Below, one piece after another: positions 3,480-38,221 of a DNA stretch of 60,773 bases; the first letter of the stretch is position 1; each line of letters starts with the position of its first letter. Source of the stretch: Synergistaceae bacterium. Lineage in GTDB: Bacteria; Synergistota; Synergistia; Synergistales; Aminobacteriaceae. The notes under the pieces are model-generated. The model had not been told where the DNA came from. It saw only the letters and a list, made by a program, of their open reading frames with translations, and did no database searches. The position numbers were made by a program, and so were the translations under genes. The stretch covers positions 1 through 60,773 of the forward strand of contig JAAYLU010000027.1 in the NCBI GenBank assembly GCA_012521675.1. Direction: 5' to 3'.

Positions 3480-4546
3480 CTACGCCTCACCTTTCGAACA
3501 AGCCCCTTGGCCAAAAGGCGACCATCTTTGAACAGCGGGTTTCTCTCGACTCGGACCGCGTCGCCCGGGTCGATCGCGCCGAATGTCGCGTACTCCTCCG
3601 CCGAGTCCTCGTTCCAGATGAATACGGAGGCCGGGCTCTTGCCGGAGAAGCCGAAGTTCCTCACCGCGGTCGCCAGCTCCGCGACGCCCGCGGGCAGGTC
3701 GTCCTTCGGGGTTTCTTCAAGCGAGAGTATGATGGAGGCGAGCAGGGAGACGGCCTCGTCGTCACCGCTCCTGAAGGGGGCGGACTGAGACGCGGCCAGG
3801 AGAGCGACGCGCGACGCGCCCTCCGCCCAGGCCTCGAAGGTCCTTCTAGCGGACTCTTCGTGCTGCCTTCTGTCGAAGTGGACCTCGCGCCTCCCCAGGA
3901 ACAACAGCAAAAGAGCGAGCAGGGGGGCGAGCAGCAGTGCCGTGAAAGAGCCCTTGTCGGAGCGCAGCCGTCCCCAGCCCGCGCGGAAGGGGCGACCGCC
4001 CAGCAGTTTGACGACCTCTCCCGCCGCGGACAGGCCCAGCAGGGCGGAGAGAGACAGGAGCAGGGCGCGACTGTTGGCTAGGCCCAGTGTCAGCGCCACT
4101 CCCAGCATGGCGCCGCCGGGGGCGCCTATGAAGACGCCGGAGGGGCGGTTGTCGAGCATGAACCACGTCACGAACGGCATCAGGGCCATCCCGGCGAGGG
4201 CGCCGAGGGCCGCGCCGGTCGCGATTCTGACGGGAGGGACCTCTGACTTGGTCTCCGGTGCGGGGAGGACGAGGGGAGGGAGGCGTTCCTCCATGCGCAG
4301 CAGCATGATTGATCGGCGGGCGGCCGGCAAGGGCTCGTCCAAGGCCTTGTCCAGCAGGGAGGGAAGGAGTATCTCCGAGGCGGCCGCCTCTGCCTTTCGG
4401 ACGGCGACCTCCACTTCGCTCGCGCACGGGACCTCTCCGAGCGGAAGGTGGGAGAAGTAGACGCGCATGCCCATGTCCACCGCGCGTCGCCTGCATTCCT
4501 CTTCCTTTTTAAGTGTGATGACGGGCGTCCTTCTCCTGATGCCCAT
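3476..4546 (-). CDS. membrane protein partner of the Hsp70-like ATPase
   Basis: Not recognised as a named family. The 356-residue start at 4546 is chosen because a GGGGGG run lies about eight bases upstream and because a longer frame would run into the preceding gene. The first 110 residues are soluble and charged (a cytosolic domain with many Arg and Glu). A central region of about 100-250 carries four or five hydrophobic helices, including a glycine-zipper stretch GAALGALAGMALMPF and GAPGGAMLGVALTLGLA. The last 100 residues are again soluble and end in an Arg-rich tail (GLVRKVRRR). The stop overlaps the Hsp70-like gene by four bases. Co-translation and the shared glycine-zipper character suggest a two-part membrane complex; its task is unknown. 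Confidence 0.75.
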   Translation of the reverse strand: MGIRRRTPVITLKKEEECRRRAVDMGMRVYFSHLPLGEVPCASEVEVAVRKAEAAASEILLPSLLDKALDEPLPAARRSIMLLRMEERLPPLVLPAPETKSEVPPVRIATGAALGALAGMALMPFVTWFMLDNRPSGVFIGAPGGAMLGVALTLGLANSRALLLSLSALLGLSAAGEVVKLLGGRPFRAGWGRLRSDKGSFTALLLAPLLALLLLFLGRREVHFDRRQHEESARRTFEAWAEGASRVALLAASQSAPFRSGDDEAVSLLASIILSLEETPKDDLPAGVAELATAVRNFGFSGKSPASVFIWNEDSAEEYATFGAIDPGDAVRVERNPLFKDGRLLAKGLVRKVRRR

Positions 4547-4575
4547 TCCGCACCCCCCGCTGAAAACTACGTCGC

Positions 4576-5058
4576 TTAATGAGTCTCCTTCTTCACTTTG
4601 TCGATTATGCGCACAGCCTCCTCGGTCGCGAACCTTGTGAAATCCGCGCACCTGTCTCGAAGCCCCTTCTCCTCGAAGACGGCCATCCCCTCCGGGGTGC
4701 CGAGATCGCATCCGAGCAGCAGATGACAGTCGCGAGCTCCGAACTTGGCCTCGAAGGCCTCTACCAGGCAGCGAGTGGCACTCCTTGCAGTGTCAGGCGA
4801 GTCGCCCGGCTTCCTTCGCCCGAACGCCAGCCCGATCGCGAGCACGGCGCCGGTCAGAGCGCCGCAGGCACCGCATGTCCTGCCCATACCTCCGCACAGT
4901 CCGGTGGCTATCCTCGGCATGAGGTCCGATTCGATCCCCTGTACTCCGGCCAGGGCCATCAGGGAGCTCTCGGCGCAGCCAAGGCCGGACAGGAACATGC
5001 GAACCGCATCTTCGCCCACCTCGGGCGCCGACGCGGGTTTAAACGTAGTGTCGTCCAT
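4576..5058 (-). CDS. C_GCAxxG_C_C family redox-type protein
   Basis: A 160-residue member of the C_GCAxxG_C_C family, small proteins with several conserved cysteines thought to act in redox or metal chemistry. Visible family features are GLGCAESSL near residue 27, the glycine- and cysteine-rich core GLCGGMGRTCGACGALTGA near 55-75, and later single cysteines in CHLLLGC and RCADF. The start at 5058 is preferred over one 25 codons upstream because GGGAGG sits six bases before it. It ends 29 bases before the membrane-protein gene at 4546 and is probably cotranscribed with the Hsp70-like pair. The biochemical role of the family is not settled. Confidence 0.8.
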   Translation of the reverse strand: MDDTTFKPASAPEVGEDAVRMFLSGLGCAESSLMALAGVQGIESDLMPRIATGLCGGMGRTCGACGALTGAVLAIGLAFGRRKPGDSPDTARSATRCLVEAFEAKFGARDCHLLLGCDLGTPEGMAVFEEKGLRDRCADFTRFATEEAVRIIDKVKKETH

Positions 5059-5140
5059 CTCTACCTCCCGTACCGAAGCGTGTGTATGACGCTTTTGTTT
5101 CAGAACAATAGCATGAATCGACACGCCCCGCAAGAATCGC

Positions 5141-5356
5141 CTACTTGAAGAACGGGATCAAAGTGCGCTTTTCGCTGATCCACTGGATGGCCAGAGAGTC
5201 GGTCCAGGATTTTGAAGGGTTCAGTACAAGGTCCAGCGCGACCGCGAGGATGACTATTCCGACGCAGATAAGCACGGTTAAAACCAGAAGGCGTATCTGC
5301 CTGACCAGGGTCGAATCTCTCTCTCTCTTCTTCGACTTGCCCTTTCCTTCGGTCAT
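5141..5356 (-). CDS. small single-span membrane protein, unknown function
   Basis: A 71-residue protein. Two ATGs are possible, at 5365 and 5356. The second is chosen because the only Shine-Dalgarno-like run, GGGAG, directly abuts the first ATG but lies nine bases before the second. The N-terminus is very basic (KGKSKKRERDS), followed by one hydrophobic helix near 20-42 (LLVLTVLICVGIVILAVAL) and a short tail ending in IPFFK, so the positive-inside rule puts the tail outside. It lies just downstream of the chemoreceptor terminator and 82 bases before the C_GCAxxG protein. No family was recognised. Confidence 0.6.
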   Translation of the reverse strand: MTEGKGKSKKRERDSTLVRQIRLLVLTVLICVGIVILAVALDLVLNPSKSWTDSLAIQWISEKRTLIPFFK

Positions 5357-5398
5357 GATGCTCATCTCCCTTTACGCGCCTCATATCTCGCGCGTAGT

Positions 5399-5431
5399 AA
5401 AAAAGGAGAGGCGCACCGCGCGTCTCTCCTT
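5399..5431 (-). terminator. rho-independent terminator of the chemoreceptor at 5458
   Basis: On the minus strand the sequence forms a 12-base stem with one G-T wobble (AAGGAGAGACGC pairing with GCGCCTCTCCTT around a five-base loop). It runs straight into six T residues, 27 bases after the stop codon at 5458. Confidence 0.85.
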
Positions 5432-5457
5432 CGTGCCTTTCACCCTTTGTCCCGTCC

Positions 5458-7149
5458 TCAGACCTTGAACTGGCCGAGCTTGCTCTCCATCTCCTCCATG
5501 CCCTCCAGCAATGTTCCCGCCTGCGCCGTCACCGACTCGAAAGCCTGCCGGGCATCCCTCGCGGCCCTGTTGATGCCCTCTATGCTCGCGACTATGTCGG
5601 ACGTCCCCTGGGAGATGCTGTTCACAGCCTCCACCATCTCTATGTTGGACAAAGACTGGTTTCGCGCCAAGTCGGACACGGTGTTCAGCTCCTTGTCCAT
5701 CGACTCGAGCTCGTCCATGCTGGCCTTGAGCGTCTTTTGAAGCAGCTCGGTCTTCTCCACCACCGAGTGGAGTGTCTCCTCCTCCTCCTCCGTGGCCTTG
5801 ATCGACTCTCCGGCATACCCTGAGAGGGACTCCATCAGGCTGGAGATCTGCATGGCGGCCCTGTTGGATTCCTCGGCCAGCTTGCGCACCTCGTCGGCTA
5901 CCACTGCGAAGCCTCGCCCGGCCTCGCCCGCCCGGGCGGCCTCGATGGCGGCGTTCAGAGCAAGCAGGTTGGTCTGGTCGGCGAAGCCGGTGATGGCGCC
6001 GACGAACCCGGCTATGGAGTCCACCGCCTCGGCGAGGGCGGACATCTTGGCCCTGTTCTCCTTGGAGAGGGCGCTGACTGTGTTTATGTCGGTCACCGTC
6101 TCCTCCATCCTCTGAGCCACTTCTTTTGTGAACTCGAAAGTCTTGGCCGACGACTCCACGCACTCCCCGGCAGCCTTGGCCATCGCCAGCGCCGTGGCGG
6201 CCATCTCGCTGATGGCTGCGTTGGTCTGCTCGACGGAGGCCGCGTTGGACTCCGACAGGGCGACTATCTGCTGCACGGCCTCGGCGACCTGCTCGATGGA
6301 GTCCATGGACTCCTCCGAGAGGTTCGACATGGTGCGCGTCTCGTCCCCGACTCCCCGTGCGATGCCGATAACGTCCTTTACCAAGGTCGCCAGCTTCTCT
6401 ATGAACTGGTTCATTGATGCGCCCAGGTGGCCGACCTCGTCCTCTGTCCTAGTCTCTATGCTGACCGTCAGGTCGCCCTCCCCCTCGCCAAGGTCGCGGA
6501 CGACGTCCGTCATCTTCCTGAGGGGCGCGACCACCCTCAGCAGCATGATAACGGTGAGAATCATGACCACGACGGCGATCGCGAACGCCATAAGGGATAT
6601 CCGCCGGCCTATGGCCTTCTGCGAGGCGTCCGCCTCCTTGGAGAAGGATTCGATCAGTTCGTCCCTGGTCCTCTCGCTGGCCTTGGTGAGCTCCGCGAGG
6701 TAGGTGGTATCAAGCCCGACCTCGACCGATCCTATTTTCTTGCCGGCGCGCATGATGTCTGCCGTGAACGGCCTTGTCAGCTCGTTCTCCAGCTTCTCCC
6801 CGGCCATGGGGGAGTCGCTGTCGTCGTAGATGACGGCGTACGCCACGTTCGGCACGGTGAGCATGTCCGCGGCGTAGTCCCTGAGAGATTCCTCGTTGAA
6901 GTCCCAGAGGGGCGTCGCCGAGATCGAGGCGAGGTAGCCCGACATCGCCTCTCCGTAGCCTTGAGCGCTGCGCTCGTCGTTGGCATTCTTGTTCTCGATG
7001 TCGTCGTTGAGCATCTTCACCGCGACCTCTTCTACCGAGCAGGACATGGTGAACACCCCCCGTTGCGCCAGGAAAGCCAGAGAACCGGCCAGCACCACCA
7101 AGCCTGCCGCGATAAGCAAGCCGAGCTTTGCGACTATGCTTTTTGACAT
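5458..7149 (-). CDS. methyl-accepting chemotaxis protein
   Basis: A complete 563-residue chemoreceptor. The start at 7149 has GGAGG eight bases upstream; an in-frame ATG 48 bases earlier lacks this. Domains are: transmembrane helix 8-28; periplasmic sensor of about 155 residues with the pattern [14 protein letters not shown] near 79-92, common in Cache-like single sensor modules; transmembrane helix 184-204; HAMP 205-258; and a long signalling coiled coil. The conserved hairpin tip is present ([20 protein letters not shown], near 395-414, followed by [17 protein letters not shown]). There is no CheR-tethering pentapeptide at the C-terminus. The gene ends in a clear terminator, so it is probably monocistronic. 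The ligand is unknown. Confidence 0.95.
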
Positions 7150-30202: not shown

Positions 30203-31426
30203 TTATTCGTCGCCGTACTCGGCTAGAAGCAGCTCGCGCATATCGGACAGGGGTATGTTTTGCTCGGCGGACATGCGGCTCACGTCCTCGTACTCCGGGT
30301 TGACCCGGGTTCCGTCGCCGGTGCGGGCGATCTTGTAGCGGGCCCTGCCCCATTTCGTCTCCCTCTCGACGACCTCCGCGTTCGCCTTGAGCCTCCGAAC
30401 CGTGTGCATCCGCACTCCCAGAGTGGTGGTCTCTCGGATGATCAGCCGGGCGAACTTCTCCTCCGACCCGAGGTTGCACAGGCAACCAAGAGTCGTCGCC
30501 GGACGGCCCTTCTTCATGAGGATGGGGGTCGCCCAAGCGTCCAGGGCGCCCTCGGCCATCAGCCTCTCGATCACGGGGGAGTAGTACTGAGGGTTCATGT
30601 CGTCGATGTTGGTCTCGATTATTACCCCTGAGTCGCGAAGGAAGCCGTCCTCGGCGGTCTCGTCCGCCTCAAGCAGCATCACTCGCAGGACGTTGGGTAT
30701 GTCGCTCTCCCTGTCGCCCGCTCCCTTGCCGCTTGCGAGCAGCTTTCCGTTCGGGATGGGGCCGAACGACTCGGCCAGCATTCGGACCAGCAGAGCTCCC
30801 GTCGGAGTGACCCTCTCCATGGGGCCTCCCTCGACCCTGACCGGCAGGCCTTCGAGCAGCTCCGCTGTGGCGGGAGCCGGTACGGGAAGAATCCCGTGGG
30901 CGCACTTTATCGTGCCGTGCCCTACGTTCAGCGGCGACGAGACGACCCTGTCGACCTCTGCCATCTCCAGCAAGACGAAGGCGCCGATTATGTCCACTAT
31001 GGAGTCGATGGCGCCGACCTCGTGGAAGTGTACCTCCTCGGGGGGCATGCCGTGCACCTTGCCTTCGGCCTCGGCCAGCAGGCGAAACGCCTTGACACTG
31101 CGTTCCTTCACCTGGAGCGACAACGGGCTTGCGTCGATTATCGCGAGTATGTCTGACAAACCTCTGTGAGGGTGGTCCTCGAAGGACGCAACATTAACCT
31201 TGGCCGCCGCGATCCCTCCCCGCGAGGTGCGGGCTACGGTTATCGACGGGTGCTTCCGCGGGCCCTCGCCGTGGTGGTGAGAATGATGGCCATGTCCTTG
31301 CGGAAAGAGCACTAGCTCCCGCATTGTCCGAAGGAACTCGGCCTCGTCCAGTCCAAGGTCCAGCATAGCGCCTAGGAACATGTCCCCCGCGATGCCGGCG
31401 AAGCAGTCGAGGTAGAGCGTTCTCAT
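30203..31426 (-). CDS. larC: LarC-type nickel insertion protein
   Basis: A 407-residue LarC/DUF111 protein. In lactate racemase maturation LarC is a CTP-dependent cyclometallase that puts nickel into the pincer cofactor. It shows the family opening MRTLYLDCFAGIAGDMFLGA, the His-rich loop GHGHHSHHHGEG near 45-56, PPEEVHFHEVGAIDSIVDI near 110-128 and the C-terminal IETNIDDMNPQYYSPVIERL. The start at 31426 has GGAGG six bases upstream and overlaps the previous stop. LarA, LarB and LarE are not in the window. Some bacteria carry LarC for other LarA-like enzymes, so the target is open. Confidence 0.92.
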   Translation of the reverse strand: MRTLYLDCFAGIAGDMFLGAMLDLGLDEAEFLRTMRELVLFPQGHGHHSHHHGEGPRKHPSITVARTSRGGIAAAKVNVASFEDHPHRGLSDILAIIDASPLSLQVKERSVKAFRLLAEAEGKVHGMPPEEVHFHEVGAIDSIVDIIGAFVLLEMAEVDRVVSSPLNVGHGTIKCAHGILPVPAPATAELLEGLPVRVEGGPMERVTPTGALLVRMLAESFGPIPNGKLLASGKGAGDRESDIPNVLRVMLLEADETAEDGFLRDSGVIIETNIDDMNPQYYSPVIERLMAEGALDAWATPILMKKGRPATTLGCLCNLGSEEKFARLIIRETTTLGVRMHTVRRLKANAEVVERETKWGRARYKIARTGDGTRVNPEYEDVSRMSAEQNIPLSDMRELLLAEYGDE

Positions 31427-32007
31427 TCGACGACCTCCAACTCCATGTCCTTGGTGCACTGCTTCCCGGAGGTATTGTCCACCACTACCCACGATAGCAC
31501 ATGCTTGCCTACCGGCCACTCGGACAGGTCCAGGATGACGGTGAACCACACGTCGCGGACGCGGCTCTTCAGGATGTGCTCGTGGCTGATGATGCCCTTG
31601 TCCTCCGCCACGACCTTTCCCTTGTCGTCCTTTACGAGCAGGTCGAGGGAGAGGCTGATATGATATTGGTCGTCCTTGATTCCCAGCTTGAAGTTGTCCA
31701 CCTCGAGGTAGACCGTCGGCTTGTCGGCCTTCTTGAAGACGCTGGTTTCCTCCTCGGTGTAGAGTCCGTATCCCCGCACCTCCTTGACGAAAAGGCCTTT
31801 TAGGAAGACTATTTCATCGGGGTTTTGCCCGGCGGCGGACTCGCCCGCTTGGGCGGCGGCCGTGCAGACGAGGACGGCGGCGAGGATTATGAGAATATGT
31901 TTGATAAACGGCGTGCTTCCCGTGGAAGCGCAGCCCCTCCGAGTTGAAAGGAACGGCGATAGTGTCACAGTATGCAGCCCCCTTGAAAAAGAAGTTTTGA
32001 TCTCCAA
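31423..32007 (-). CDS. secreted protein of unknown function
   Basis: Up to 194 residues. A hydrophobic signal sequence (HILIILAAVLVCTAAAQA) sits around residues 37-54 of the longest frame, which is too far from an ATG at 32007 to be typical. The true start may be a GTG at 31968 (VTLSPFLS) or another alternative codon; none has a clear ribosome site. The mature part is a beta-rich domain of about 135 residues with an alternating pattern (TVYLEVDNFKLGIKDDQYHI) and no cysteine pair except one near the end. No family was recognised. It overlaps larC in an ATGA, so a link with nickel-cofactor maturation or a shared substrate is possible. Confidence 0.65.
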   Translation of the reverse strand: MEIKTSFSRGLHTVTLSPFLSTRRGCASTGSTPFIKHILIILAAVLVCTAAAQAGESAAGQNPDEIVFLKGLFVKEVRGYGLYTEEETSVFKKADKPTVYLEVDNFKLGIKDDQYHISLSLDLLVKDDKGKVVAEDKGIISHEHILKSRVRDVWFTVILDLSEWPVGKHVLSWVVVDNTSGKQCTKDMELEVVE

Positions 32008-32155: not shown

Positions 32156-32809
32156 ATGAAGATAGGCTATTCGGAAGAACTGCTTTTTCTTGAAGACGAG
32201 ACCGATTGTATCGGCTCGGACGGACGCATCCGCGGATTCTTCGACGGGGCGTCGCGAGGAAACCCGGGCGACGCCGGTGCGGGGGCTCTGCTGGTCGATG
32301 CGTTGGGCGAGGTGATCTGGAGCTGCGCCAGGCCGCTGGGGAGGAGGACGAACAACGAGGCGGAGTACGATGCCCTGATCATCCTGCTGGAGGAGATCCG
32401 CGAGCGGGGGCTGAGGTCGGTCGCTATAAGCGGGGACAGCAGCCTGGTTGTCAAGCAGGTCACAGGCGCGTGGAAGATAAAAGAACCTCGCCTCAGGCCG
32501 CTTGCCGAGCGGGCGCTGGAACTGCTGACGGAGACAGAAAGCTCCCTGTCGTGGGTCCCGAGGGAGGAGAACAGGGAGGCTGACAGACTCTCCAACCAGG
32601 CCATCGATGGAGAGAAGCGAAGTCGAGCGACCGACGCTTCTCCTTTTCCGGCAGAGAGGTTGGAGCATGTAGCCGGAGGAATTTACATAGCCCACGGAAG
32701 CGAGGACTACGCTGTGGATCTCGTCCACGGGGCCTGTACCTGTCCGTCGTTTCAGCACAGGAGATGCTGCAAGCATCTGGACGCCGCCAGGAGGCTTGCC
32801 GAGGGTTAA
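32156..32809 (+). CDS. ribonuclease H-like protein with C-terminal SWIM zinc finger
   Basis: A 217-residue protein. Residues 25-150 form an RNase H fold of the prokaryotic type-1 (archaeal-like) kind, with catalytic acids Asp30 in FFDGASRGNPG, Glu70 in RRTNNEAEYDAL, Asp94 in ISGDSSLVVKQ and Asp143 in READRLSNQAI. Residues about 165-217 add a SWIM-type zinc finger, with the CxC...CxH pattern made by Cys194, Cys196, Cys205 and His207 (CTCPSFQHRRCCKHLDA). GAGGAG lies seven bases before the ATG. It would cut RNA in RNA-DNA hybrids; the finger may add nucleic-acid binding. It converges on and overlaps the ABC ATPase gene by four bases. Confidence 0.85.
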   Translation: MKIGYSEELLFLEDETDCIGSDGRIRGFFDGASRGNPGDAGAGALLVDALGEVIWSCARPLGRRTNNEAEYDALIILLEEIRERGLRSVAISGDSSLVVKQVTGAWKIKEPRLRPLAERALELLTETESSLSWVPREENREADRLSNQAIDGEKRSRATDASPFPAERLEHVAGGIYIAHGSEDYAVDLVHGACTCPSFQHRRCCKHLDAARRLAEG

Positions 32810-33597
32810 AACCGGTCCTTCAGCAGCGGGGTGAGCCTCGGCAGGGCCGAGGCGAGCGCACGGGTGTAGGAATGTCGCGGCGAGTCGAGAAATCCCGCCG
32901 TGGAACCCTCCTCTACGAGGACTCCCTTGTGCAGTACAATCCCCCTGGCGGCGGCCCTTCGCGCCAGGAAGAGATCGTGCGTTACGAAGATCATGGACAT
33001 GCCCGCCCTCTGCCTCTCGCCGAGTATCTCCAGGATCTCACCCCTGGTCGACGCGTCCTGCATGCTGGTGGGCTCGTCGCACAGAAGAAGCTCCGGCTCC
33101 AGGACGAGCGCCCTCGCCAGTGCGACCCTCTGGCGCTGCCCTCCGGAGAGGGACAGGCGCACCTTAGACGACATCAGCTCGGTTCCGAGGCCGAGCTCCT
33201 CCAGGAGCGACCTGGCGCGTCTCTCGCCCTCCCGCCTCTCTCCCCGGCCCTTTACGATGAGCCACGGCTCCATGACCGCCTCCAGCACGGTGAGCGAAGG
33301 AGGCAGAGCGCCGTAGGGGTCCTGCGGGACCACCGAACAGCGCTGCCTCAGCCCGGTCAGCCTCTCGCCGTGTGCGCTCCGCAGGTCGACGCCGAAGAGG
33401 GAGACGCTGCCCGAGTCGGGCTCGACGTGCGCCGAGATGCACCTGAGAAGGGTGGTCTTGCCGCTGCCGGACTCGCCTATTACCGAAAGGCTTTCCCCAC
33501 GCTCCAGTTTGAACGAGGCACCGTCAAGGGCCCTGACCCGCCCTCTGCCGCCGGGGCGGAGGAAGTCCACGACGAGGCCGTCCACCTCGAGGATCAT
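32806..33597 (-). CDS. dipeptide/nickel-type ABC importer ATPase (DppF/OppF-like)
   Basis: A 263-residue ATPase. Walker A GESGSGKTT near 41-49, Q-loop VVPQDPYGAL, signature LSGGQRQRV, Walker B LLLCDEPTSMQDAS and the switch His in FVTHDL. The C-terminal SPRHSYTRALASALPRL is the oligopeptide-family extension, though without the cysteine cluster that binds iron-sulfur in some members. It is the last gene of a five-gene importer operon, overlapping the DppD-like ATPase by four bases. Confidence 0.92.
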   Translation of the reverse strand: MILEVDGLVVDFLRPGGRGRVRALDGASFKLERGESLSVIGESGSGKTTLLRCISAHVEPDSGSVSLFGVDLRSAHGERLTGLRQRCSVVPQDPYGALPPSLTVLEAVMEPWLIVKGRGERREGERRARSLLEELGLGTELMSSKVRLSLSGGQRQRVALARALVLEPELLLCDEPTSMQDASTRGEILEILGERQRAGMSMIFVTHDLFLARRAAARGIVLHKGVLVEEGSTAGFLDSPRHSYTRALASALPRLTPLLKDRF

Positions 33598-34394
33598 CGC
33601 TCTCCCTCCCTCTCAAGATCGAGCAGGGCATTCACCAGCTCGGCGGAATGCTCGCTTTTCGGGCGGGCGACTATCTCCCCCGGGGTTCCCTCCTCGGCCA
33701 GTTCCCCATCCTTCATAATCAGCAGGCGCGAGCAGGCGGACGCCGCCAGCGGCAGATCGTGAGAGACCAGCAGCATTCCAACCCCGCTTGACTCCACCAG
33801 CCCCTTCAGCTCGTCTATGATCGCCTTTTGCGTGACCACGTCAAGCGCGGTGGTAGGTTCGTCGCACAGCAGCCAGTCCGGGTCGCACGCCAGTGCCAGG
33901 GCGATGGCGGCCCTCTGCTTCTGTCCCCCCGAGAGCTCGTGGGGATAGCGGTCCGCGCAGGAGGGGTCCAAGCCCGCAGAGGCGAACAGCCTCTCCGTCC
34001 TCTCACTCGCCGCTTGCCCCGTCATCCCCAGGTGGATGTCAAGCACCTCCTCCACGTGAGCGCCGACGGTGATCACGGGCGTGAAGGAGTTCATCGCGCC
34101 CTGCGGGACGATGGCGATCCTGCGCCAGCGCAGTTCGTTCAGCTCGTCCTCGTTTAATGAGAGCAGGTTCGTTCCGTCGAGCAGTATCTCGCCGCCGACC
34201 CTGGTGCCCGCGGGCAATAGCCCCGGTATCGACATCAGCACGGTGCTCTTGCCGCTTCCCGACTCGCCCGCCAACGCGCAGAGCTCGCCCTTTCTCAACG
34301 TCAGAGAGAGCCCCCTGACCGCCTCCGTCTCGCTCCCCGCACCCCGGTCGGTCGCTCGCGTGTAGGTCACCGACAGGTCTCTTATCTCGATCAT
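33594..34394 (-). CDS. dipeptide/nickel-type ABC importer ATPase (DppD/OppD-like)
   Basis: A 266-residue ATPase. The start at 34394 (MIEIRDLSVTY) overlaps the permease stop by four bases. Walker A GESGSGKST near 45-53, Q-loop IVPQGAMNSFTPV, signature LSGGQKQRA, Walker B LLCDEPTTALD and switch His in LLVSHDL. It ends shorter than typical OppD, with a brief tail (HSAELVNALLDLEREGER). It pairs with the ATPase downstream to drive the two permeases upstream. Confidence 0.92.
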   Translation of the reverse strand: MIEIRDLSVTYTRATDRGAGSETEAVRGLSLTLRKGELCALAGESGSGKSTVLMSIPGLLPAGTRVGGEILLDGTNLLSLNEDELNELRWRRIAIVPQGAMNSFTPVITVGAHVEEVLDIHLGMTGQAASERTERLFASAGLDPSCADRYPHELSGGQKQRAAIALALACDPDWLLCDEPTTALDVVTQKAIIDELKGLVESSGVGMLLVSHDLPLAASACSRLLIMKDGELAEEGTPGEIVARPKSEHSAELVNALLDLEREGER

Positions 34395-35569
34395 CTCCGA
34401 GCCCCCCTCAGCCTCGGGTCCACCCTCTCCTCCAGGTGCTTGCCCAAATCCTGGAAGGCAAGGCAGAGCAGGGTTATTCCAAGCCCCGGAGGCAGCAGCA
34501 GCCACCATGCCCCGGCGGTGAAGGCCCCGAAGGAGTGGGCCTCGTGAAGCATCCTTCCCCAGGAGATCACGCGCGGGTCGGAAAGCCCGAGGAAGGAGAG
34601 CCCCGCCTCTGACAGGATCGCGCCAGGCACCCCGAGAGTCATGGTCGCCAGCAGCACCGGGAATGTCTCCGGCAGCAGATGCCTTCGCAGAATGTACCCG
34701 GAGCGCGCCCCCAGCCCGCGCAGCCCTTCGATATATGGCGCGTCCCTCAGGGAGAGGATCAGCGAGCGAACAGTCCGGGCCGTGCTCATCCATGAGAAGA
34801 CGGAGAGTATCAGCACCAGCTGCCACAGTCCCTTGCCCCACATGGCCGCCAGCGCCATCAGCACGGGCAGCAGAGGTATCGACAGCAGAAGGTCCACGAG
34901 CCTCATCGCCAGCACATCGGTCCATCCGCCGAGGTAGCCCGCGGCCAGCCCGACCGACGTCCCGAGGAAGGTAGCCAGAAGCGCCGCGAACAGGCCCACG
35001 ATGAGGGAGACGCGCACCCCGGCGGTGAAGAGCGCGGCGACGTCCCTTCCCCTCTGGTCGGTCCCCAGAAGCCCCCACCTTCCGCCCTCCAGCCTGATAG
35101 TCACCGAGCCATCGAAATCCCCGGCGCCCGAGACAGAGATGAGGTACTCTCCGCGCCGGTCGAACAGGGAGGCAGCGGCGTCCTTGAAGGGGGGCAGCCC
35201 AAGCGAGCGCTTGAAGGCTATGTCGCGGCCGTCGGCCCTGAAGCCTCCCGTCAGGGGGGCGAGCTGAAGGGGCGGCTCTCCCGGCTTTACGATCTCCACG
35301 AAGAGCCCTGTGTCGCCGGCCGAGTCGTCGACTGCGATCGAAAGACCCGAGGGCGGGGAGTAGCGCCAGTCGAGCGATAGCTCGGGCGTGTCGCGGTTCA
35401 GAGTCAGGCTGGTGGTGGGGGGCTGATCCCGGCTCAGCCACAGAGGCTTGCAGAAGGGGGAGGCCACCGGCTGGCCTGGCCGGTGGTCGAACAGACTCTC
35501 GCCGAAAAGGGCCAGGACGGTGAGGGCCAGGAGGCACCAGAAGCTCCATCTGCGAATAAGGCCGGTCAT
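34391..35569 (-). CDS. DppC/OppC-like permease with an extra extracytoplasmic domain
   Basis: A 392-residue permease. Helix 1 (FWCLLALTVLALFGESLF) is near 10-27. Then comes an inserted domain of about 120 residues, before the usual GLLGTDQRGRDVAALFTAG at about 167-185. The insert is soluble and beta-rich (SVTIRLEGGRWG, LFVEIVKPG). It carries no hydrophobic stretch, so it should lie outside the membrane. The remaining helices and the EAA-type loop (EGLRGLGARSGYILRRHLLP) are standard. Family members are usually near 300 residues, so the insert is a lineage feature that may contact the binding protein. Confidence 0.9.
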   Translation of the reverse strand: MTGLIRRWSFWCLLALTVLALFGESLFDHRPGQPVASPFCKPLWLSRDQPPTTSLTLNRDTPELSLDWRYSPPSGLSIAVDDSAGDTGLFVEIVKPGEPPLQLAPLTGGFRADGRDIAFKRSLGLPPFKDAAASLFDRRGEYLISVSGAGDFDGSVTIRLEGGRWGLLGTDQRGRDVAALFTAGVRVSLIVGLFAALLATFLGTSVGLAAGYLGGWTDVLAMRLVDLLLSIPLLPVLMALAAMWGKGLWQLVLILSVFSWMSTARTVRSLILSLRDAPYIEGLRGLGARSGYILRRHLLPETFPVLLATMTLGVPGAILSEAGLSFLGLSDPRVISWGRMLHEAHSFGAFTAGAWWLLLPPGLGITLLCLAFQDLGKHLEERVDPRLRGARR

Positions 35570-36544: not shown

Positions 36545-38221
36545 TCACCGCCCGCCCAGCCAGAAATCCTCGTTGGAGGTCAGGTGAACGTACTCCCCCG
36601 GCTTGTACTCACGAAGGATGAACGGCCCGGAGCCGATCATCCGGGTGAGGGAGTAGTCCTCCTCGTGCTTAACCGACGCGGGGAGCCAGCTTCTCCAGTC
36701 GTCCACCTTCTCCACTATGTGCCTCGGCAGGACCGGGAGTCCGCCTATCCTGTGCAGATGCCAGAAGCTGACGTTCTTCATCGTCACTACCAGGGTGAGG
36801 TCGTCCGGCACCTCAACTCTCTCGATGTTGTCAACGTTATCGAAGTAACGTGGTGGCTTGTTCTCCCGCAGAAACTCGTAGGTATATGCCGCGTCGCGAG
36901 CGGTCAGCGGGTGTCCGTCGTGCCATTTGACTCCCTCGCGCAGGTGGAAGGTCAGCGTCGTGTGGTGACCGTTGCCCTCGTCCTCCGTGGTGACGGTCCA
37001 CGAGGTCGCCAGCCAAGGGATGGTCTCCAGGGTGTATGGATCGACTGCGATAAGGGCATCGTAGACCAGGCTCATCACCTGCCAGTCGTAGGCGGAGCTG
37101 GATGTGAACGGGTTGAGTGCCCTTGGTTCTTCCTCCTGCACCAGGTAGAGGGGGCGCATAGGGCCGGACGCCGGCTTCATCGAGAGCAAGCTCCAGATGT
37201 TGTCCGCGGTCGTCCTGTCCGTCACCAGGAAGTCCTTCCAGTCGCGCCTGACTGCGGAGACAGAGTATCTGCTGTAGATCGGAGCGACGGGGGCAAGGTC
37301 GACGAGGAGCCTCTGAGCGTCTGAGGCCGCGTCCAGCGCCGTGGTCGCGTCCGGGGCGAAGCGGAGGCGGTCCAGCTCCCTGTCGAGTTCCGGGTCCGAG
37401 ATGCCGGGGATGTTGTGCCCTCCCGGAATGTCCAGCTTCGAGGAGTAGAGGGAGTACAGCGAGTCCGGGTCGCGCGTCATCTGCCACGCAAGCACGTAGA
37501 GCTGAAAGTCACGCTCGTCCAGCCGCGACAGCATGGCGGAGAAGTCCATCGGCTCCGTGCTTACCGGTATGCCGATAGCGGTCAGCGCCTCGGCGGCCCT
37601 CACAGCCAGCTCCGCTGTGGTCGGGACGACAGCCGCGGTCGGGGAAAGTATCTTCTGGGGAGGAATCTTTCTTCCGTCGGGGGAGATCAGGACGCCGTCC
37701 GTGTCAAGGGTCCATCCAGCCTCGGCCAGTGCGGTTCGCGCTGCGTCGGGGTCGTACGGCCAGCCTTTGATCGTAGGGTCGAAGTAGGGAGATATGGGTG
37801 GAAGGAAGGTGGACAGAGGCTCGGCGTAACCTGCGAAGAGGTCTCGCACGATCTGCTCGCGTGGCAGCGCCTGCCACGCCGCCCGGCGAAGCTCGACCCG
37901 GTCCCACGGAAACTCCCTGTTATTGAAGCCCAGGAAGAAGCCGTGAAAGCCCGCCGCAAGGGAGAGGTCCACGTTGGTGTCGTCGGCGAGAGTATCTACG
38001 TCCACCGGCCTGTGAAGGTTGCCGAGGATGTCGACCTGCCCGTTTCGGAGCGCCATTATCTGCGCGTCCGGGTCCCTGATTATCACCAGGTAGAGGTCCT
38101 TTATCTTCGGTGCGGAGTAGCTCTTCGGGTCGAAGTCCGAGTAAGACCATCCGGGATGGGGCGACAGAACAGAGAAGAGAAGCACGGCGAGTGCGAGAGC
38201 GCTCAGGAAATGTCTTTTCAT
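36545..38221 (-). CDS. SBP_bac_5-family peptide-binding protein with its two halves in swapped order
   Basis: A 558-residue binding protein for the importer encoded downstream. A signal peptide (FLSALALAVLLFSVLSPHPG) covers about 1-26. In ordinary family members the order is an N-terminal part (LxYDxLV..., then the REGVKWHDG signature, ending near SNEDFW) followed by a part starting PKIKDLYLVII and ALRNGQVDIL. Here the second part comes first (residues about 38-360) and the first part last: RALNPFTSSSAYDWQ at 367, LTFHLREGVKWHDGHPLTAR near 423-442, and a C-terminal end at TSNEDFWLGGR. The present C-terminus would join the mature N-terminus as the usual internal sequence. All parts of the fold appear present, so it is probably functional. 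Other possibility: an assembly rearrangement. Confidence 0.85.
   Translation of the reverse strand: MKRHFLSALALAVLLFSVLSPHPGWSYSDFDPKSYSAPKIKDLYLVIIRDPDAQIMALRNGQVDILGNLHRPVDVDTLADDTNVDLSLAAGFHGFFLGFNNREFPWDRVELRRAAWQALPREQIVRDLFAGYAEPLSTFLPPISPYFDPTIKGWPYDPDAARTALAEAGWTLDTDGVLISPDGRKIPPQKILSPTAAVVPTTAELAVRAAEALTAIGIPVSTEPMDFSAMLSRLDERDFQLYVLAWQMTRDPDSLYSLYSSKLDIPGGHNIPGISDPELDRELDRLRFAPDATTALDAASDAQRLLVDLAPVAPIYSRYSVSAVRRDWKDFLVTDRTTADNIWSLLSMKPASGPMRPLYLVQEEEPRALNPFTSSSAYDWQVMSLVYDALIAVDPYTLETIPWLATSWTVTTEDEGNGHHTTLTFHLREGVKWHDGHPLTARDAAYTYEFLRENKPPRYFDNVDNIERVEVPDDLTLVVTMKNVSFWHLHRIGGLPVLPRHIVEKVDDWRSWLPASVKHEEDYSLTRMIGSGPFILREYKPGEYVHLTSNEDFWLGGR

Follow-up and report, generated by a model that had tools for sequence, protein, structure and literature searches.

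Does the gene at positions 36545-38221 (minus strand) encode a transporter binding protein in which the halves have truly changed places, or a normal protein that only appears in disorder? The window, i.e., the whole stretch of 60,773 nucleotides of Synergistaceae DNA that was analysed, had been the subject of a sequence-only reading. This described an ORF of 558 aa with swapped halves, whose ends matched the two sides of one internal point with seemingly nothing lost, located in an intact importer operon, and took it for a natural circular permutation. A family comparison placing the halves in the standard order, or related genomes with the normal order, would have refuted it. Naming the N-terminal, middle and C-terminal thirds of canonical SBP_bac_5 proteins A, B1 and B2, the features of the locus are the following:

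36545..38221, minus strand: circularly permuted SBP_bac_5 peptide-binding protein (permuted SBP), 558 aa, block order B1-B2-A (class I)
38144..38221, minus strand: signal peptide, residues 1 to about 26, without lipobox (from the sequence and a pattern check; cleavage site inferred)
37676..38116, minus strand: block B1, residues 36-182, the middle third of canonical SBP_bac_5
37187..37675, minus strand: block B2, residues 183-345, the C-terminal third
37124..37195, minus strand: linker fusing the old C- and N-termini, residues about 343-366 (W343 to about A366)
36548..37171, minus strand: block A, residues 351-558, the N-terminal third, with NEDFWLGGR as last residues
35566..36537, minus strand: DppB/Opp4B-type permease
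34391..35569, minus strand: DppC/Opp4C-type permease, its periplasmic loop between TM1 and TM2 enlarged
35054..35494, minus strand: DppC region with an inserted periplasmic beta-sandwich domain of ~95 aa, conserved with the permuted SBP
33594..34394, minus strand: DppD-type ATPase
32806..33597, minus strand: DppF-type ATPase

The clearest evidence for the exchange of places comes from the family profiles. PF00496 matched the protein with 246.5 bits (curated cut-off 32.4) in two swapped pieces, residues 35-261 (37439-38119, minus strand) corresponding to profile positions 143-362 and residues 400-557 (36551-37024, minus strand) to positions 2-144. Three further SBP_bac_5 genes detected in this genome have the normal order and match in one piece each (PF00496 1-365, 2-367 and 2-348). 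Ten SBP models of NCBIfam also match the permuted SBP, none of them over its cut-off; seven do so in two stretches, which were swapped wherever both halves could be compared between models. Against the PDB, phmmer aligned the protein with AppA (1xoc) in swapped stretches (residues 424-556 with 83-210, and 47-281 with 221-452), and DppA and NikA were likewise matched in two stretches of swapped order. AppA was the top PDB match both by sequence (phmmer) and by fold (Foldseek). Once the halves had been rejoined as A+B, 1328 plasmid records were matched at ≥80% coverage instead of 170, and the best E-value against plasmid SBPs improved from 4e-22 (native order, two pieces) to 9e-44 (one piece). 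The rejoined query also gave a single match through the joint in Synergistota SBPs of normal order, e.g., 10-499 in G112.

The mature N-terminus, near SYSAPKIKDL, and the C-terminal NEDFWLGGR correspond to the sequences on either side of a single point inside the canonical protein, and no residues have been lost or doubled. Of the 26 class I proteins measured, 25 have a spacing of 25 residues between the last Trp of B2 and the LNP of A; in the remaining one the Trp is replaced. By analogy with OppA and DppA, both old termini as well as the new cut site would be located in domain I, so that a short linker would be enough to bridge the old ends. The window protein is a genuine natural circular permutant, with the halves of one canonical protein in the order B-A and not A-B. 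As for the earlier claims, the swapped halves held in the Pfam, NCBIfam and PDB comparisons, which produced no refutation; the single internal point with nothing lost and the intact operon (all five genes are intact) held as well, and the permutation reading is supported. Only the start of block A, put at about residue 368, had to be corrected, to about residue 351, with the linker at about residues 343-366.

It could be argued that a normal gene had been scrambled by tandem-repeat misassembly, or otherwise by an assembly or annotation artefact, and the window does belong to a draft genome of 121 contigs. However, the same order, with unchanged linker length, was present in 108 of 188 Synergistota genomes (46 of 63 genera), nearly always as one collinear match and also in single-contig genomes (G021, G022, G030, G032, G136 and G137), which leaves practically no room for an artefact. 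A broader search, in which exact peptides of one sequence were run against 84,980 species genomes, turned up 20 relatives, all of them Synergistota and matched over nearly the whole protein. Thus related genomes, the other check proposed for the sequence-only reading, showed the swapped and not the normal order, in 20 Synergistota loci as well as in the 108 genomes. Since this was the only broad scan and used exact peptides of one sequence, class I proteins outside Synergistota remain possible. In a family alignment of 20 rows (the window and 19 loci) identity to the window was 40-78%, without any gap at the joint.

The dN/dS values between the window and L007 or L008 lay between 0.09 and 0.19 for each of the blocks, and the fusion linker gave 0.017 (window versus L007); both halves are under purifying selection. 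The distribution along the phylum and these values indicate that the permuted SBP is old, selected for protein function and, as inferred from the distribution, mainly inherited vertically. At the threshold of the search of 188 Synergistota genomes, no genome of the basal families f11 and f12 contained it. Where the permuted SBP was missing, a search for normal-order orthologues in Synergistota genomes recovered only SBPs of ~30% identity, some in differently arranged operons. Scanning viral contigs with the family alignment gave no match, and a query across the B2-A junction gave only weak matches in phage records, the best-covering one being MT838128. A few copies (G118:C1:1106303-1107912, G115:C113 and L026:158-1598) look broken, with stop codons or a split between frames; they appear to be decaying, or sequencing errors, and we can offer either only as a possibility.

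The AlphaFold2 model obtained with the family alignment as input (pLDDT 86.5, pTM 0.81) predicts that the permuted SBP probably takes the usual two-lobed clam fold, an inference that rests on this model only. Its 50 best Foldseek matches were cluster C SBPs, AppA, DppA and NikA among them. Only ~300 columns were aligned, as expected for a permutant, because Foldseek follows the sequence order and is not permutation-aware; the model was not superposed on a solved structure.

The permuted SBP heads an operon SBP-DppB-DppC-DppD-DppF, a layout kept in nearly all loci examined, and has the secretion and operon traits of SBP_bac_5 proteins: the signal peptide in its sequence and DppB, C, D and F downstream. 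It belongs to the same family as AppA, DppA, OppA and NikA (PF00496, cluster C) over both halves and has the same operon partners, but is cyclically permuted, with new ends between A and B and the old ones joined by the 25-residue linker. Among the closest known systems is the Opp4/App importer (AppABCDF), which has the same operon layout, and Opp4 was the best NCBIfam model for the SBP, DppB and DppC. Nevertheless, the scores were far below the curated equivalog cut-offs (130.7 of 650, 207.7 of 450 and 195.8 of 350 bits for Opp4A, B and C), and the window differs in its permuted SBP and in the enlarged DppC loop domain. The most likely role of the permuted SBP is that of an ordinary oligopeptide-binding protein of an App/Opp4-type importer, peptide binding and import being inferred without any experiment.

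Downstream of the operon there are a gene for LarC (nickel pincer cofactor biosynthesis, 30206-31420) and one for a small, apparently secreted protein without family (31423-32007), a relative of which is also found near the operon in Acetomicrobium (L018, L113). A transporter of nickel or of a metallophore, instead of peptides, could be considered given the NikA models and structures among the SBP matches and the neighboring LarC gene. We consider this unlikely: the best subfamily model for SBP, DppB and DppC was the oligopeptide one, Opp4, and the association with LarC was seen in only one other locus, the closely related L007. In one lineage (L103/L013, about 4339-5976) the permuted SBP is an orphan, located between an ankyrin-repeat gene and unrelated genes with no DppBCDF adjoining.

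The partner permease carries a trait of its own. With the permuted SBP, the DppC core is preceded mostly by about 160-170 residues, versus mostly 56-90 in normal-order operons (L061 and L102, with higher values, have an uncertain start codon position). The additional stretch is a conserved periplasmic module of ~95 aa with the motif DGRDMxFKxxLGLPP, predicted to be a beta-sandwich (pLDDT 82), for which there was no confident relative in the PDB (best E 0.004) and no Pfam family. A profile of the insert was positive in 106 of the 188 Synergistota genomes. Insert and permuted SBP were both found in 105 genomes and both missing in 79, with the SBP alone in three and the insert alone in one, an agreement of 184 out of 188 that was also seen within families and genera. 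The Fisher p of 3e-48 for this co-occurrence is overstated because the genomes are related. The only genome with the insert and no permuted SBP found (G099:C62:4018-4419) is an 82% complete draft, possibly with a missing contig. In the absence of docking data, we infer that the insert is one of the parts in contact with the permuted SBP and probably takes part in the docking. The Dpp system of Escherichia coli (DppABCDF; PMC12136057) also has two permeases, two ATPases and an SBP capping DppB/DppC, but its DppC has ~73 aa before the core versus ~162 in the window. The scoop motif that enters the SBP cleft there belongs to DppB (PMC12136057).

Natural circular permutants of transporter binding proteins appear to be very rare. 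In the open-access literature searched there was no report of a permuted SBP_bac_5 protein, and the only SBP precedent was TpMglB-2 (Tp0684) of Treponema pallidum, a type I SBP that is circularly permuted in nature and for which a Type Ic or Cluster Bc has been proposed (PMC4990184). Like the window protein, it is a permuted importer binding protein, conserved in a clade and located in a transporter gene cluster. However, TpMglB-2 is a lipoprotein with the Type I (cluster B) sugar-binding fold in which only strands of the N-lobe have moved, whereas the window SBP is of cluster C and matches PF00496 and AppA, DppA and NikA, not MglB. Lipoprotein tethering, an idea offered for TpMglB-2, was rejected as the reason for the class I permutation, since only one of 21 class I sequences showed the lipobox pattern.

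A second class of permutants (class II, order B2-A-B1) came to light among the SBPs of plasmids when a query spanning the B2-A joint was used. In the protein of Maritalea myrionectae, positions 24-390 correspond to window residues 183-555 and positions 389-536 to window residues 35-182. With this protein as query, 46 plasmid records had one place covering ≥80%, the best of them in Halobacteria and Alphaproteobacteria; the survey was limited to plasmids and Synergistota. In the class II operons examined permeases and ATPases adjoin the SBP. Some of the plasmid loci (L114-L117, L122-L130) are beside genes of dipeptide epimerase, D-aminoacylase or M28 peptidase. One Synergistota genome, G176, carries both classes, and its class II copy (G176:C273:49652-51244) is 42% identical to that of Nitratireductor, possibly by horizontal transfer or contamination. 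The class II DppC proteins mostly have no enlarged loop, so that permutation does not generally require the insert. The exception is Nitratireductor, whose DppC of 557 aa (L122:7613-9286) has an insertion of ~270 aa between TM1 and TM2, the same loop as in Synergistota, with a weak tachylectin match.

Together with the canonical order, classes I and II complete the three possible cyclic orders of A, B1 and B2, all of which occur in nature. A receptor of ~520 residues is thus available in every cyclic order, in two domains of life, and related operons of canonical order can be compared with it. Nature has in this way set up an experiment on the tolerance of a large fold to new ends, on the emergence and spread of permutants, and on the question of whether the membrane partner must change with them (the DppC domain). 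Neither the phylum-wide distribution, nor the matching domain in the permease, nor the second class formed part of the sequence-only reading. Further permutants may be hidden, because profile searches give two separate matches and annotation says only "substrate-binding protein".

For the origin of class I, the likely ancestor would be a tandem fused copy, A-B-A-B, that later acquired new start and stop positions. Such permutation by duplication is the simplest route (PMC3320104), and we infer it here; no A-B-A-B intermediate was found among the loci examined, an absence that leaves this route possible. The mature chain starts in the middle of the canonical fold at SYSAPKIKDLYLV, continues to the old C-terminus, passes over the short linker, whose length is fixed, into the old N-terminus, and finishes where it began, at NEDFWLGGR. 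Once folded, the protein would capture peptides in the periplasm and dock on DppBC as usual, probably with participation of the enlarged DppC loop domain, all of which is inferred.

Alternatively, halves from different parent SBPs could have been fused in swapped order by domain shuffling. Both halves are on average only about 16-29% identical to the sampled normal-order SBPs, their identities to normal SBPs are uncorrelated (Spearman 0.16, uninformative at such divergence) and the tree of the A half is poorly resolved. Against this, class I is monophyletic in the trees of both halves, the larger group around it has App/Opp4-like normal operons (L095/L096, L118) in common between the two trees, the joints show neither loss nor duplication of residues, and the operon fits one family, Opp4. 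Shuffling seems to us very improbable. We consider instead, with high confidence, that this App/Opp4-type ABC importer has a cluster C oligopeptide-binding protein that is truly circularly permuted, by nature, and functional; the fold, the peptide binding, the docking role of the insert and the duplication route are inferred.

Whether classes I and II come from one ancestral fusion of the old C- and N-termini, with new ends placed differently, or from two independent permutations was not resolved by several trees and four AU tests. The tree of the DppB+DppC core joins both classes (95/81, and 94% of bootstrap trees), excluding 18 normal-order operons; the linkers are of about equal length (25 residues in class I, 22-27 in class II) and a FastTree of the SBP joins the classes at 0.86. 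On the other hand, neither a careful SBP tree without the linker nor a quick concatenated tree joins them, AU tests leave both placements open (p 0.16, 0.17 and 0.23) and the class I branch is long. At present neither history can be preferred. A bolder reading would be that one App/Opp4-type head-to-tail fusion founded a lineage with migrating ends (class I in Synergistota; class II in Halobacteria, Alphaproteobacteria and one Synergistota genome), and that the DppC domain of Synergistota co-evolved to recognise the permuted SBP. If true, Synergistota would have an importer with an altered interface between binding protein and permease, although the balance tips against this combined proposal. 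In the DppB+DppC core tree, the normal operons nearest to classes I and II were those of G017/G018, Cytobacillus and Streptomyces.
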